Made by a program: the position numbers and the translations under genes. The notes beneath the pieces were generated by a model that searched no databases, was not told the origin of the DNA, and saw only the letters and a program-made list of their open reading frames with translations. From positions 1 through 23,640 of the IMG/VR virus record IMGVR_UViG_3300036791_000138: a stretch of 23,640 nucleotides of DNA; one strand, written 5' to 3'. Shown here piece after piece: positions 4,374 to 20,496 of this stretch (position 1 is its first letter; the number at the start of each line of letters is the position of its first letter). The DNA comes from a virus.

Positions 4374-7300
4374 TGCGCCCACGCCTTCGCTTCGAGCGCG
4401 AGCCGCGACGAGTCGGGATAGTTCTGCCAGGTGCCACCGTCGCCACCCCACGTCATCTTTGCCGAGTACGTCGTTCCGGCCGCCAGCCGGAACAGCCGCT
4501 TGGCGGTGTAGCCCATGTAGGTCTGCACCTGTGAGTGTTGCTCCTGGTAGTGCATTGCCGACTGCACGTTGTCTTGGTCGGGGATCGACAGAACCATTTG
4601 CAGCAGGCCGTAGTTGTACGCGGCGTCCGTCTTCTGCACCAGGCCCATTGAGGCCGTCACCTCCCACCAGACGGGGACAGTTGGCGTGATGCTGAGCCGC
4701 ATCACTTGCCCAGCGCCGTTCGTGATGTCGCCAGCAGGAAGTGTCGCGTAGCCGCTGTACGCCCCGACCATGCGTTGCACGCTGAGCATGATGGAACCGG
4801 GCAGCCCCTGCGGTCCCTGCGGCCCCGCTCCCGCCGTAACCAGCGTTACCGACATGAACGTCTGGGTCGCCCCAGTGACGATGTTGCCCACGTGATCGAG
4901 GTAGACGTACAGCTCGATGTAGTCGCCAGCGTTGAGTTGCACCGTATCCGCGAACGGCACAGCGCCGTAGTTCGTGGCCGTGGGGCAAATCTGTGGATCG
5001 CTGTACGTCGCGCCGTTCTTCCAGATCGAGGCGATCATGTAGGTAGGCGTCGCCGTCGCACTAAGGCTGAAGGTGGCAGCACCGCTGACCTGATACGTGC
5101 CAGTTACGGGGGCGACGAAGCGTCCGTTCGCGAGATTGAACAGGTTGCTGCCAGCGTCAAAGTTCTGCGTGTCCAGCGCCACCTTGGTCCACGTGGTGAC
5201 AGGGATCGCCAGCGCGGTGTTGCGATACGCCCGCGCCGCCGTCGTCGGCGCTGTCGTGCGGTTGGTGAACCCCTGGTCCACCCACACGCCGCCGACGCGC
5301 TCGAAGTTCTCCCCGTCCGTCTTGCGGATGCACCAATCCCCGTCAAGTTCCCCCGCGAACGTGCCAGCAGACGGAGTGCCGGTGCCGTTGTACATGTACC
5401 AGATCGCCCCGCGCTTCCCCGTCGCTCCAACGAGCGCGGAGCCCGAGTCGAGCTGCACCCCGGTGGCCTTGATGATCTGCGCCATCAACACGTACGGCGG
5501 CAGGTTGTTGTGCGCCGCGCCGCCGCCCTGAGTCACCCCATTAGCAGCGGGCACCAACGGGTACCAGTAGGTCGATCCCGCTGGGGGCGCTGCCCCTGAT
5601 ATGGCGTTCCAAACTGACTGCGCGCTGGAAGCGAAGTTCGAGGGCACCTCACTCGCCAACAGCGTGTGCGTCGTCTCGCCGCCCACCCCGCCTGCTGCGC
5701 TCGGAGTGTTCGCTCCGTAGATGAACCGGTTGCGGAGGTCCGGCAGGTTGAAGTGCGTCGAGTCGGCCGACCCGTAGGTGGTGCCTATCGCGGTGAACAG
5801 GTCTGGGTAGCTGCCGCGCGGCAGCGAGCTTCCGTCCGCGAGCAGCCAGTTGACCGGGATCGTCTGGCCACTGAACGACTTGACGGTCCCGATCTGGTCG
5901 GTGTCGTACACCGGCCGGGTCGCGGCAACGTCGGACGTGTCGAGCCACAGATACCCCTCTGGCGGGGCGGGCTTCGGGTTGTTCGCGTCCGGCGGTACAG
6001 CGACCACCTCGACGTACGCACCCGAGATGCCCGTGGTGCCTGTGCCCGCCGGTCCGGTCGGTCCGGGTGGTCCGGTGGGTCCGGTGGGCCCCCCACCGCT
6101 TGTGAGCGACACGGCCATGTAGTTGACAGTCGCATCGCCGCTGTAGAGCGTCCCTCCCGCTGCGTTGTACGCCCCGATCTGAATGTGGTCGCCCGCGTTG
6201 CACTTGACCTTGTCCGAACACGTCAGCCCAGAGACAGCGCTCACCGCCGACTGCGTGTTCGTCATGGTGATCTGCGCACCGTTCACGAAAATGGCAGCAG
6301 CCTGGTTGACGTACGTCTGAGAAGGCATGTTCATCGTGACCTCGACGGTCACGTCGTAGACCCCGGCGACCGGGCATGTGTACCACCCGTTGGCTGTGTC
6401 GAGACACCCATTAGCGTCGTGGGTGATCGTGTCCACGGGGACGACCGTCCAGGTAGCTGCGGTCATCGTGAACGCTGCCGCTCGCCTCGCACGTGCCGCG
6501 TAGGACGTACCGATTGTCCCCGTTGGACCCGTTGGTCCTGTGGGTCCGGCAGGTCCCGTCCCCCCTGGCGGGCCTGTCGGGCCTCCCGCTGGCCCCGCTG
6601 GTCCGATATCGCCTGTCGGTCCGGGGTTGCCGGTTGGTCCGGCGGGACCGGGGATTGTCGAGTCGTTACCGGTCGGACCGACCGGACCCATCGGTCCCGT
6701 GGCTCCGGTCGGCCCGGTCGGTCCCGTTGGACCAGGCACGGTCGAGGCTGCGCCGGTTGGTCCGGCGGGTCCGGTCGCCCCCGTCAGCCCTGGGGGTCCG
6801 GTCAGCCACGAGGTCACCGACTCGGTGTCGAAGTAGGCGTTGATCGCCACGTAGGCATTGGTGCCGCCGAACATCCACGTCACCGCACCGGTCACGTCCA
6901 CATCGACACGGGCGTGCACGTCCGAGTTGGCGTCGTTGACGAAAATCTGCCGTCCCAGCGGCCGGTAGCCGGTCGGCAGGGTGAAGATCAGCGACGGTGC
7001 TGCCGTGCCGCTCTGTACGAGCCCTCGCACCAGGACCGTGCCGTCCGGGTACTTGCGGAACGATGCTGACTGGAAGCCGCTGTAGTTCGTCCAGCCGTTC
7101 TGGAACGTCGGCTCGCCCGTCCCGCCGACGTAATGCCACTTGTCCATCAGCACCGCCGTGCCCGGCGTCCCCGGAGGACCCGTTGGCCCAGTTGGTCCTG
7201 TGGGCCCGGTGTCGCCCATCTGGACGGCCTCGGCGGAGTCAACCCACAGGTACCCCATCGGTGGGTCGGGGTTCGGCGTGTTGGGGTTCGGTGGAGTGCC

Positions 7301-15892: not shown

Positions 15893-16153
15893 CTAGCCCC
15901 TCCCCATCGCCTTCGCGACCCTCGCGGTCTGGCCACCGGCAGCGAGCTTCGCTTCGATCTCGGAGGCGTACAGCCCAGCGCCGTACAGGAAGTGCCGCAG
16001 CCGCGATGGGTAGCGCGGCAAACGCGGCTCCTGGTCTGGATGGCCGAGCGGGCGGTAGTCCACGTCAAGGCCGTTGTACGTCCTATAGGGGTCCTCACCG
16101 CCGTACCTCCAGGCCAGGAACAGCATCTGTGCTTCGCCCCCGGCCTTGATCAG
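15893..16153 (-). CDS. Tail assembly chaperone C-terminal extension, reached by -1 frameshift
   Basis: This is the -1 frame portion of the chaperone. After slippage on A_AAA_AAC, base 16153 is read again and the frame continues Leu-Ile-Lys-Ala-Gly-Gly-Glu-Ala-Gln, then MLFLAWRYGGEDPYRTYNG, for 86 residues to TAG at 15893-15895. The fusion product would be 295 aa (209 + 86). An in-frame ATG at 16126 could start a 77-aa stand-alone protein, but it lacks a clear ribosome-binding site, so I favour frameshift expression. In the lambda G/GT paradigm the fusion links the tape measure to tail tube subunits. The tape measure gene begins three bases after this stop. An overlapping 69-codon frame at 15889..16098 is a shadow. 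Confidence 0.85.
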   Translation of the reverse strand: MIKAGGEAQMLFLAWRYGGEDPYRTYNGLDVDYRPLGHPDQEPRLPRYPSRLRHFLYGAGLYASEIEAKLAAGGQTARVAKAMGRG

Positions 16154-16779
16154 TTTTTTGCGCTCAGCGCGTCCCGCACGTCCTCGTCATCGAACCCGGA
16201 CAGAGCCATGATCTGGTTCGCGAGCTGGGCGATCAGCCCAGGCTTGCGGCGGAACTGCGTCTGGAGCAGCGCCTCCGGTGAGACGCCGCGACTCCGCGCG
16301 AGCGCTTCCACGTCAGGATCGACAGACCCGGCCATGATCACCTTCAGGTTCCCGAGCTGGTCGATAGCGAGATCGTCCTGACGGCCACGACGACGCAGCG
16401 CTGACGTGGTGCGCTGAATCCGGCGCAGCTCGTCGGAGTCCACGGGCCGCACGATCCACTGCACCCACTTCGGGTTGTCACCAACCCCGACGTTGATCTC
16501 GATGACGTGCGTCGGCTCGGCTTCCTCGTCGGGCTCCTCCGACAGGAACCACTCCAGCGCGGAGGTCACCTCGCTCTCGGACACCTGCTTGTCGGCGGCG
16601 AGTTCCGCCAGCACCTCCGACGTGGTGCGCTCCTCGTCCTGTGAGCGCTCCTCCCGCCCCCTAAGGGCGGTCGGTGGCGGCAGCGCCTGCTCCTGCTCCT
16701 GCTGCCGTTGACGGCCTGCTACGGGCCGCTGGGGCGGCTCAGGAGGCTCTTGGACGCGAACGTCCTCAGTGTCTGGCAT
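16150..16779 (-). CDS. Tail assembly chaperone, XkdN-like (209 aa, zero-frame product)
   Basis: ATG at 16779 with GAAGGAG nine bases upstream. Residues 1-55 are a Pro/Gln/Glu-rich disordered leader. The folded part begins at about residue 90 with THVIEINVGVGDNPKWVQW and continues through DSDELRRIQRTTSALRRRG to a helical end with GVSPEALL and KPGLIAQLANQIMALSGF. The final residues AKN match the way XkdN-type chaperones of contractile phages end, because these codons form the slippery site. Its place between tube and tape measure genes is where this family always sits. It is expected to coat the tape measure during tube assembly and not be part of the mature virion. The disordered leader is unusual. 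Confidence 0.88.
   Translation of the reverse strand: MPDTEDVRVQEPPEPPQRPVAGRQRQQEQEQALPPPTALRGREERSQDEERTTSEVLAELAADKQVSESEVTSALEWFLSEEPDEEAEPTHVIEINVGVGDNPKWVQWIVRPVDSDELRRIQRTTSALRRRGRQDDLAIDQLGNLKVIMAGSVDPDVEALARSRGVSPEALLQTQFRRKPGLIAQLANQIMALSGFDDEDVRDALSAKN
16153..16159 (-). promoter_or_regulatory. Programmed -1 ribosomal frameshift site, A_AAA_AAC
   Basis: On the minus strand the last codons of the zero frame read GCA AAA AAC TGA. The seven bases A AAA AAC form the canonical X_XXY_YYZ heptamer, and the zero-frame stop follows at once. Slipping back one base puts ribosomes exactly into the 86-codon extension that ends just before the tape measure. I did not find an obvious strong hairpin downstream by eye; the immediate stop codon may itself favour slippage. 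Confidence 0.85.
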
Positions 16780-16824: not shown

Positions 16825-17031
16825 TCAGCCATGCCGCGTCACCTCGCGGAGTGCTCGTGCAGAGGGCCGTTGTTCCAGGGGGGTCGGGTCGAAGTTGCGC
16901 TCGCCTTCAGGCAGGCGGCACTGCACCTCGATGCGGCTCATCTTTGAGAGAAGGTCCCGTTGACCGTGCGAGTTCTTCTCCACGACATAGGCTTTCAACT
17001 CCAGCCAGGCCCTTTCATAGTCCACGATCAT
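16825..17031 (-). CDS. Small tail-region protein of unknown function (68 aa)
   Basis: Begins MIVDYERAWLELKAYVVEKN; its ATG overlaps the stop of the homing endonuclease gene by one base (TGATG). The sequence is helical and charged, continuing GQRDLLSKMSRIEVQCRLPEG and ending with a short Arg-rich tail. Small proteins with a similar YERAWLELK opening are, as far as I recall, common in actinobacterial phage structural regions, but I know of no assigned function. No good ribosome-binding site precedes the ATG (GAGGG lies about 15 nt away), so translation probably depends on ribosomes finishing the upstream gene. Before the endonuclease gene arrived, this gene would probably have followed the tail tube gene directly. 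Confidence 0.75.
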   Translation of the reverse strand: MIVDYERAWLELKAYVVEKNSHGQRDLLSKMSRIEVQCRLPEGERNFDPTPLEQRPSARALREVTRHG

Positions 17032-17504
17032 CAGGCTGCTCGCAGACCCTCGAAGACACGGCCTTCCATCAGGCTTTGGCGCAGCGACAGCAAGCGCTCA
17101 TCACGAGCACCGTGGTCGCAGTAGATCAGGACCGCCTCGCGCCAGACCTCGTAATCGCGGGCCTTCTTGCTACGCAGCGGGAACCGGTCGAAATACGCAA
17201 CGAGCCCGCGCATGTCCGTCTTCGCGCAGACCACCCAGACGTATCGGTCCTGTCGGTTCGCGCCGTCTTTGCGGGCAGACTTGGCATGCCTCACGGTGCC
17301 ACCGAAGGACTTCGCCAGGCCATCGAGTACGGCACGGTCGTCCTCCCGTAGCCCAAGCTGGAACCACGGCTGCACACCGATCACGTCATACCGGACGATC
17401 TTGCCTCCGCGCTGAACATCCTGGCGCTTCTGCACCAGCATGAAACAGCCCTCGCCAGCAGCAAAGCCAGCGAGCCAAGCGTCGCGTTCGTAATCAACGA
17501 TCAC
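17031..17504 (-). CDS. LAGLIDADG homing endonuclease, single-motif, free-standing (157 aa)
   Basis: GTG at 17504, seven bases after the tail tube stop, with a weak TAGGT as ribosome-binding site. The motif WLAGFAAGEGCFML (residues 10-23) is a clear LAGLIDADG helix with Glu18 as the metal-binding acid. Further family features are FQLGLREDDRAVLDGLAKSF, a YVWVV strand, and a C-terminal GLVAYFDRFPLRSKKARDYE followed by VWREAV. With one motif it should act as a homodimer, cutting a near-palindromic site of about 20 bp and copying itself into phages lacking it. It lies between genes, in an otherwise unbroken tail operon. Its first seven residues are identical to those of the next gene. No intron or intein boundaries are visible, because both neighbours appear intact. 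Confidence 0.9.
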   Translation of the reverse strand: MIVDYERDAWLAGFAAGEGCFMLVQKRQDVQRGGKIVRYDVIGVQPWFQLGLREDDRAVLDGLAKSFGGTVRHAKSARKDGANRQDRYVWVVCAKTDMRGLVAYFDRFPLRSKKARDYEVWREAVLIYCDHGARDERLLSLRQSLMEGRVFEGLRAA

Positions 17505-17511
17505 GACGGAC

Positions 17512-18060
17512 CTAGCCGCTCAGCGTGTCGAGGTACCGGATCGCGGGCTGGCCGGTGATCGGGTTTGTCTGCCCCTCGATGATCTCGAAGCTCTGCAACG
17601 GCTTCTCTGTCTCCCAGCCGAAGCTGAGCGAACGGTCGATCACGTCAACGGTGATGTCGAACCCCAACGGCAGGTCCCACAGCATGCACCCGTTGAGTTG
17701 CCACACCTCGGCCCCGAGCGCATCCGGGTCGTCCAACCACACCTGCATCGAGAACGACCGCATCGAGCCCGCCTGCGTCCCGCGCAGCGCCCGGCGTTGC
17801 GCAAGGCTCTGGGACATGTAGCTGTGGATGTACTTCTCCCAGTGCGTGTCGATCTTCTGGATGTTGAACGTGCCGTCGCGCGTCTCCCGGCCCGGCTTGA
17901 TGCCCATGCGGGTCGCGCCAACGAGCGGGATCTCGACCTTCGCAATCGTGATCGTCGCTACCACGTTCGTTATCTCCGCTCTCACGAAACCGTCCATGAT
18001 CGCGTAGCCGTACATCCCTGAGATGCGATATAGGCCCTCACTTGATCCAACCTCAGCCAT
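17512..18060 (-). CDS. Tail tube protein, XkdM-like (182 aa)
   Basis: ATG at 18060 preceded by AAGGAGGTGA, the strongest ribosome-binding site in the window. The protein shows the order expected for the XkdM/gp19-type tube fold: an N-terminal loop (GLYRISGMYGYAIMDG), strands NVVATITIAKVEIPL, the element GTFNIQKIDTHWEKYI, and SFSMQVWLDDPDALGAEVW, then the closing LPLGFDITVDVI. Its size (~180 aa) is normal for a tube subunit. It follows the sheath and precedes the chaperone and tape measure, as in other contractile tails. Many copies polymerise as hexameric rings to form the inner tube. Confidence 0.9.
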   Translation of the reverse strand: MAEVGSSEGLYRISGMYGYAIMDGFVRAEITNVVATITIAKVEIPLVGATRMGIKPGRETRDGTFNIQKIDTHWEKYIHSYMSQSLAQRRALRGTQAGSMRSFSMQVWLDDPDALGAEVWQLNGCMLWDLPLGFDITVDVIDRSLSFGWETEKPLQSFEIIEGQTNPITGQPAIRYLDTLSG

Positions 18061-19911: not shown

Positions 19912-20496
19912 TCAGTCGCCGCTCACAGATGAATCTTCACGGACTCGCACGCTCTCCAGGATCGGGGAGTCGGGGATCGTCTCAGCGACCCGCCGCCACG
20001 CCAGCCGCACGTCGCACATCACAGCCCACAGCGTGTCCTCGTCCGGGTCCACGAACGGCTGGGTGGAGAGGTCATTGACGCGCATGAACGCCCTCGGGTA
20101 CCACACGCCCTGGTCCCAGTTCTTCGTGTGGTAGTAGTTGTACAGCGGCACGCGCATCGCCCGGCCGTTCTCGACGCCGACGCGGAACGCGCGGTACAGG
20201 CAGTTCTCGACCCGCTGCGCTTTCAGCAGCGCCTCGTCCGGGTTACGCCCCTGCTCCGGGTAGGCGGCGACCACGAACGGCTGCACCATGTCCGCGACCC
20301 ACCGCCCGCCGGTCAGCGGGTACGTTGTCCCGGCAACCTGCCAGACGCGAGCGAACGGCCTCGCGAACGCTCCCTCCTCGCGGGAGATCCGCACTTCCCA
20401 GTCGTCGCCGAGCGCGACGGCGACGTAGCGCTTGACGCTACGCAGCGCGTCCTGGTGCGCCCGGCCCGAGTCAAGCGGTGGTGTCGTGGTGCTCAA
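19912..20496 (-). CDS. Probable tail terminator / tail completion protein (194 aa)
   Basis: The frame opens further upstream, but that part overlaps the gp10-like gene and reads as shadow. I place the start at TTG 20496, overlapping the previous stop as TTGA, giving MSTTTPPLDSGRAHQDALRS. No clear ribosome-binding site is seen, so coupling is likely. The rest has mixed strands: VAVALGDDWEVRISREEGAF, ARPFARVWQVAG, VADMVQPFVVAAYP, and a C-terminal LWAVMCDVRLAWRR strand. This N-helix followed by a beta-sheet of two or three strands is compatible with lambda gpU/T4 gp15-like terminators, and the position just before the sheath gene supports that role. The function is inferred mainly from gene order. 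Confidence 0.7.
   Translation of the reverse strand: MSTTTPPLDSGRAHQDALRSVKRYVAVALGDDWEVRISREEGAFARPFARVWQVAGTTYPLTGGRWVADMVQPFVVAAYPEQGRNPDEALLKAQRVENCLYRAFRVGVENGRAMRVPLYNYYHTKNWDQGVWYPRAFMRVNDLSTQPFVDPDEDTLWAVMCDVRLAWRRVAETIPDSPILESVRVREDSSVSGD

Follow-up and report, generated by a model that had tools for sequence, protein, structure and literature searches.

Homing elements that replace an end of the gene they occupy are known from fungi. Each homing event of the WHO element replaces the 3′ end of FBA1 and leaves a chimera that is resistant to the element's own endonuclease (Coughlan et al. 2020, PMC7282813), and the mORFs of fungal mitochondria (Allomyces atp6; Glomus atp6, atp9, cox2, and nad3) come with replacement carboxy-terminals whose differences are mostly synonymous (PMC3630166). 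Tremella fuciformis mitochondrial DNA has mobile insertions bearing a duplicate of a portion of the host gene that replaces it, including N-terminal duplications (PMC7315562). Among phages, mycobacteriophage methylases have been noted, without explanation, to contain a lone LAGLIDADG insertion (PMC11855218), and the free-standing seg and mob endonucleases of T4 are homing genes without an intron or intein (PMC2988022). The present study describes a phage locus with likenesses to each of these, at which we consider it probable (roughly 0.8), on the strength of sequence comparison, that a LAGLIDADG gene inserted in codons 6-7 of a small gene, captured that gene's native start, and re-supplied the small gene with a re-coded leader; cleavage, homing, and protection would be the activities underlying this arrangement.

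The locus lies on the minus strand of a 23,640-nt stretch of viral DNA, in its entirety a virus record of IMG/VR, the whole of which is referred to as the window, where the genes stand in the contractile-tail order sheath, tube, LAGLIDADG endonuclease, 68-aa gene, and XkdN-like chaperone. Junctions were sampled by querying IMG/VR with the small and tube proteins and with alignments of them, resulting in 19 close contigs, 17 of which had no endonuclease at the tube/small-gene junction (empty junctions). The sample of occupied sites was three (the window, L009, and L018), with the window and L009 being sister phages, and among 14 contigs (13 relatives and the window) the endonuclease was present in these three only, besides two weak matches elsewhere. 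The features of the window are listed below, where L010, L011, and L012 denote the three nearest endonuclease-free phages.

19567-18083, minus strand: sheath gene.
17512-18060, minus strand: tail tube gene, the left neighbor (Pfam DUF2001 phage tail tube, E 4.7e-13; phrog_365 tail protein, E 7e-18).
17484-17504, minus strand: native small-gene leader GTGATCGTTGATTACGAACGC, which forms endonuclease codons 1-7 (20/21 to the L010 empty junction).
17031-17504, minus strand: LAGLIDADG endonuclease ORF (Pfam), 157 aa, single motif, an in-frame fusion to the native leader.
17484-17488, minus strand: putative insertion/cleavage region, native small-gene codons 6-7 (from the L009 divergence and the L018 right flank).
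17011-17031, minus strand: re-supplied, synonymously different small-gene leader ATGATCGTGGACTATGAAAGG (15/21 to L010 and L011; 14/21 to L012).
16825-17031, minus strand: small conserved gene between the tube and the tail assembly chaperone, 68 aa, found in all sampled phages of the group.
16150-16779, minus strand: XkdN-like tail assembly chaperone, the right neighbor (Pfam Phage_TAC_5, E 7.8e-9; phrog_389).

The small gene's product had 0 Pfam hits and no significant PHROG hit, and it had no match in 84,980 bacterial and archaeal genomes that were searched with the phages' host in mind. Among named phages there was no significant match to the small gene (best E 0.2), and the tube gene gave two remote matches only.

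The endonuclease ORF (17504-17031) opens with GTGATCGTTGATTACGAACGC (M/V-IVDYER) and the small ORF (17031-16825) with ATGATCGTGGACTATGAAAGG (MIVDYER), and the endonuclease stop and the small-gene ATG share 1 nt (TGATG). The initial annotation had reported that both ORFs begin MIVDYER, share about 15 of 21 bases, and differ only synonymously beyond the start codon, and our recount agreed exactly: 15/21 bases were identical, the first base separated GTG from ATG, and the remaining differences (GTT/GTG, GAT/GAC, TAC/TAT, and CGC/AGG) were all synonymous. This likeness is far beyond chance, which was discarded as an explanation because the native small-gene start of L010 stands at the same position after the tube gene and matches the endonuclease start at 20/21 bases. 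Two proposed extensions of the repeat fell away. The (D)AWL that follows the heptapeptide belongs, in the endonuclease, to the LAGLIDADG domain, because Pfam homology begins at residue 11 and PDB homology at residues 8-12, and because an endonuclease relative with another leader also has DAW. The likeness of GAGCGGCT to GAGCAGCC ahead of the two starts, a shared GAGC(G/A)GC(T/C) context, was dropped and is probably a product of chance, since it is not conserved in L009 (GGTAGCTGCC) and the two copies stand at different distances from their start codons.

The endonuclease bears the domain, fold, and catalytic acid of a LAGLIDADG homing endonuclease. It matched Pfam PF00961 (LAGLIDADG_1) over residues 11-125 (E 2.1e-12, 48.3 bits against a cut-off of 23.1), its AlphaFold model (pLDDT 79) retrieved I-TnaI and I-OnuI in Foldseek (E about 3e-8), and the catalytic-position acid E18, at position 8 of the single motif LAGFAAGEG, was invariant in the three elements. 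As judged from homology and the model, the MIVDYER tag is foreign to this enzyme, since domain homology starts later, residues 1-6 have a pLDDT below 50 (the first helix begins at residue 9), and kin in other contexts, namely the mycobacteriophage and Rhodobacter phage methylases, L033, and L034, are without MIVDYER. The concern that relatives elsewhere might already carry the heptapeptide was thus not borne out, the only other bearer being the same-site endonuclease of L009.

Homing LAGLIDADG genes often reside in introns or inteins, which would favor a spliced element here as well, with the endonuclease concealed in a group I intron or an intein. We attach almost no probability to this, as the insertion is filled by the endonuclease, both ORFs have starts and stops of their own, and the locus had neither an Rfam intron match nor a Pfam splicing domain.

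The nearest other kin of the endonuclease have the same domain embedded in a methylase; Mova gp70 is the nearest named one found, and its methylase location fits the published description (PMC11855218). The domains most like the window's, those of L029 (Mycobacterium phage Mova gp70) and L030 (Rhodobacter phage RcMrWorf gp52), come from phage groups that are unrelated to each other. Both lie in frame in a DNA methylase, a short way past the DPPY motif; inspection by eye showed no splicing domain, and a re-supplied end is absent. The 359-aa ORF at 2716-3795 of L033 has a central LAGLIDADG domain (PF00961, E 1.6e-20) between unrelated N- and C-terminal parts, and is a further candidate for in-frame insertion without splicing.

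In all 17 empty junctions, the small gene directly follows the tube gene, with its start 8-19 nt from the tube stop, and the small protein opens M-[IVL]-[VI]-D-[YH]-E-[RK]-A-[WF]. On this comparison a MIVDYER-type leader is both old and native to the small gene, since the small gene of the distant L058, whose tube protein is 26% identical, starts MVVDYERAW. A more distant empty junction, L078, has another start (MLTDAERVLIELK). The L010 junction, from a phage whose small protein is 96% identical to the window's, reads ...AGCTAGGCACGTC GTGATCGTTGATTACGAACGT GCCTGG, an empty junction of this type consisting of the tube end and GTGATCGTTGATTACGAACGTGCCTGG; the window's junction reads ...GGCTAGGTCCGTC GTGATCGTTGATTACGAACGC GACGCTTGG, which is the endonuclease start. 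The first 21 nt of the L010 small gene match the endonuclease start at 20/21 positions and the window's small-gene start at 15/21, the native leaders of all three nearest phages (L010-L012) are nearer the endonuclease copy than the small-gene copy, and the endonuclease copy is contiguous with the native left flank in the window. The 20/21 versus 15/21 match and this contiguity therefore point to the endonuclease start as the original and to the small-gene start as the re-supplied one. When the window's left flank is joined to small-gene codon 8 onward with the insert left out, the result is VIVDYERAWLELKAYVVEKNS with the frame intact, and the left flank through codon 7 followed by the small gene from codon 8 is VIVDYERAWLELKAYVVEKNSHGQRDL, the expected empty gene, an insertion within a conserved gene being mapped both by the 17 empty junctions and by flanks that join in frame. 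As read from these aligned junctions, in which the insertion point, the start capture, and the intact flanking frame are all legible, the endonuclease is inserted at small-gene codons 6-7 and has captured the native start, which now forms an N-terminal tag in frame with it.

The initial annotation had seen an insertion at the start of the small gene with the leader kept and rebuilt and the copies coded differently, all of which stands, but it had the direction of copying reversed: the re-coded copy was placed on the endonuclease and the original start was left to the small gene, whereas the empty-site relatives indicate that the endonuclease holds the original leader and the small gene the re-coded one. 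The two copies do differ by synonymous codons, as that version has it. Every close empty relative, however, has its native leader contiguous with the tube gene, like the window's endonuclease start, and the leaders of L010-L012 are closer to the endonuclease copy, with L010 contradicting the version outright, and we therefore find it very improbable. The alignment of endonuclease-free phages that had been suggested as a check bore out the insertion itself, the endonuclease start proving to be the insertion's left flank and not an unrelated sequence.

The small gene downstream of the endonuclease keeps its protein sequence behind a leader that is divergent in its codons. Against L012, the window's small gene has 7/21 differences in the leader and 2/129 in codons 8-50 (Fisher 1.2e-5), a contrast that is weaker against L010 (P 0.016) and L011 (P 0.002); a divergent substitute for the displaced gene end is found in this comparison and also in L018, whose leader is likewise rewritten. 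When synonymous codons are drawn at random according to the codon usage of the window, as many differences as observed, or more, arise at P 0.15 for L010 and 0.02 for L011, and the same synonymous-drift calculation against the upstream copy gives P 0.11. Leaders vary among the endonuclease-free phages as well, by up to 29% between close pairs. Re-coding is a fact, and the divergence of the leader is not clearly above synonymous drift. A plain target duplication, arising through a staggered break or short homology (for example, GCx-TGG) and followed by synonymous drift of the downstream copy with no protective role, would fit both the P of 0.15 against L010 and the variability of leaders in empty phages. 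We nonetheless regard it as unlikely, given that the 7/21 differences from L012 are followed by only 2 in the next 129 nt (Fisher 1e-5), that L018 has its own rewritten leader in the same place, and that the downstream leaders of the window and L009 are the same except for the last base, though the 3′ halves of their endonucleases are only about 60% identical.

Two further observations concern individual leaders. The endonuclease-free L012 has an odd leader at 4557-4580 (VVVDYEK, with GAGAAA) and a small gene that is otherwise near-identical to the window's; this leader is possibly the scar of an earlier conversion at the same site. In the re-supplied leaders of the window (17011-17031) and L018 (4976-4999), the Val before Asp is encoded by GTG in both, a codon that none of the 15 distinct close empty junctions has at that position (theirs are GTT, GTC, or Ile codons) and that is present in the distant L058; the shared GTG could be a mark of common ancestry or of escape from cutting.

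The sister phage L009 allows the limits of the element to be compared at close range. The left flanks of L009 and the window are 99.6% identical over 1,456 nt (BLAST), and most 60-nt blocks on both sides near the endonuclease are identical at 58-60 of 60 positions; the endonucleases share 71% protein identity. The native leader is the same in both phages through nt 17 of the endonuclease ORF, and mismatches start at 17487, the third base of endonuclease codon 6, and continue to 17037, after which come 25 identical bases, spanning the stop and almost the entire new leader, and a last mismatch at 17011, in small-gene codon 7. The divergence begins and ends at the two leaders. Because it is confined between them in near-identical flanks, the endonuclease allele was probably exchanged locally between the sister phages with breakpoints at the two leaders, and the pattern, as aligned, is what homing or gene conversion would be expected to leave behind. 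L009 also has an extra insertion of about 690 nt (1457-2147, corresponding to about 19913-19942 of the window, where it is absent). Its coding sequence, which runs on the opposite strand, specifies 201 aa and includes a homing-endonuclease-associated repeat (PF18780, E 1.1e-8); not far from the sheath gene, this may be another homing gene of the presence/absence kind.

L018 carries at the same site a LAGLIDADG protein with 45% identity to the window's endonuclease. Relative to the empty L021, its insertion falls exactly between the tube end and small-gene codon 6, with codons 1-5 replaced and the right flank picking up at codon 6. Its small gene opens ATGACCGTGGTGGATTGGGAGCGG (MTVVDWER, not MIVDYER), and a GGAGG stands 7 nt upstream of this rewritten start, inside the 3′ end of the endonuclease. 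By these alignments, two diverged members of one endonuclease family interrupt the small gene near codons 6-7, and each is then followed by a rewritten start. Start capture is clear only in the element of the window and L009, because the L018 endonuclease begins MLKD with no clear native leader, and the other LAGLIDADG genes in related contigs (L081 and L082) had no obvious leader capture.

The downstream leader might instead be the native start of an unsampled donor phage that was carried in with the endonuclease during homing, the same outcome having been proposed for the Allomyces and Glomus mORFs, whose inserted gene ends look foreign (PMC3630166). That this leader was found in 0 sampled empty phages agrees with such a donor. 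The boundary is sharp, however, with codon 8 onward native-like (127/129 to L012), and the nearest sampled empty leader is still at least 4/21 differences away, which makes a donor origin a doubtful account in our estimation.

Under the reading that we prefer, in which the start was captured and a re-coded one returned, a single-motif LAGLIDADG gene would insert within codons 6-7 of the small gene after the tube and, having no start region of its own, would take over the native start codon and first codons. Translation of the endonuclease would begin at the initiation site of the small gene itself, which would give the enzyme MIVDYER as an additional tag. The element's 3′ end would bring a substitute 5′ end (the TG-ATG overlap and seven re-coded codons) that keeps the small protein sequence, and the small gene would restart at the TGATG overlap or, in L018, after the GGAGG. 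In co-infecting phages that have no endonuclease, the enzyme may then cut the intact leader around codons 6-7, and repair from the element-bearing genome, with the captured leader and tube gene as the left homology and codon 8 onward as the right, would bring in the endonuclease together with the new leader. Neither the native site, now split, nor the mismatched re-coded leader would be cut any longer, and recombination that deletes the element would find poor substrates in the two imperfect 21-nt copies; evasion of self-cleavage and a block to deletion are both plausible. Presence or absence at one site agrees with sister-allele exchange in being consistent with site-specific cleavage and homing into endonuclease-free alleles.

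Such an arrangement would show how a free-standing homing endonuclease can occupy a gene without an intron or intein, by using the victim's start signal and returning a re-coded one, and it warns annotators that the N-terminus of an endonuclease may be a stolen piece of the neighboring gene. The empty sites, together with the alleles of the two sister phages and the second, diverged element, make target recognition, recoding immunity, and start hijack directly testable on small DNA substrates.

The closest named sequence relatives, the LAGLIDADG domains of the mycobacteriophage methylases Mova gp70, Wee gp78, and Taj gp79 (about 36% identity), likewise lie within a coding sequence without splicing elements; they differ in being inserted in frame inside the methylase, with no re-supplied end seen and apparently vertical inheritance reported (PMC11855218). 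The T4 seg and mob endonucleases are not LAGLIDADG enzymes, a word absent from the review, and the parts of that review available to us describe no replacement leader for the target gene (PMC2988022). Our coverage of the phage literature, which was partial and took in few subscription journals, yielded no description of a re-supplied or captured gene start. The Tremella elements are described as introns or intron-like insertions in mitochondrial DNA, and start capture by the endonuclease does not figure in the available parts of that account (PMC7315562). Like the mORFs, the locus combines an endonuclease ORF inserted in a gene with a replacement gene end whose differences are largely synonymous; the mORFs differ in acting at 3′ ends in fungal mitochondrial DNA and in leaving the native end stranded, not captured as a start (PMC3630166).

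With the WHO element of Torulaspora and Lachancea, it shares a LAGLIDADG-type homing element inside a conserved gene with no splicing required, a displaced gene end re-supplied as a divergent copy (which in WHO makes the gene resistant), and a fragment of the native end left beyond the endonuclease (PMC7282813). WHO, a nuclear element of yeasts that is related to inteins and zinc-finger proteins, replaces the 3′ end of FBA1, whereas the phage element acts at a 5′ end, and the leftover native fragment is here reused as the endonuclease's own start (PMC7282813). The intein-like domain, zinc finger, and HO kinship of WHO proper were not found in the phage protein, in which Pfam identified a single LAGLIDADG_1 domain in 157 aa. 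We tentatively suggest, at somewhat less than even odds, a dedicated phage family of 5′-end-replacing homing cassettes that would recognize the start region, capture the initiation site, and return a cleavage-proof, re-coded start, with serial invasions rewriting the N-terminus of a structural-region gene as WHO does the 3′ end of FBA1. The phage element works as the mirror image of WHO and the mORFs, while not being WHO by family, and it would extend the gene-end replacement strategy of these yeast and fungal elements to phages and to 5′ ends.
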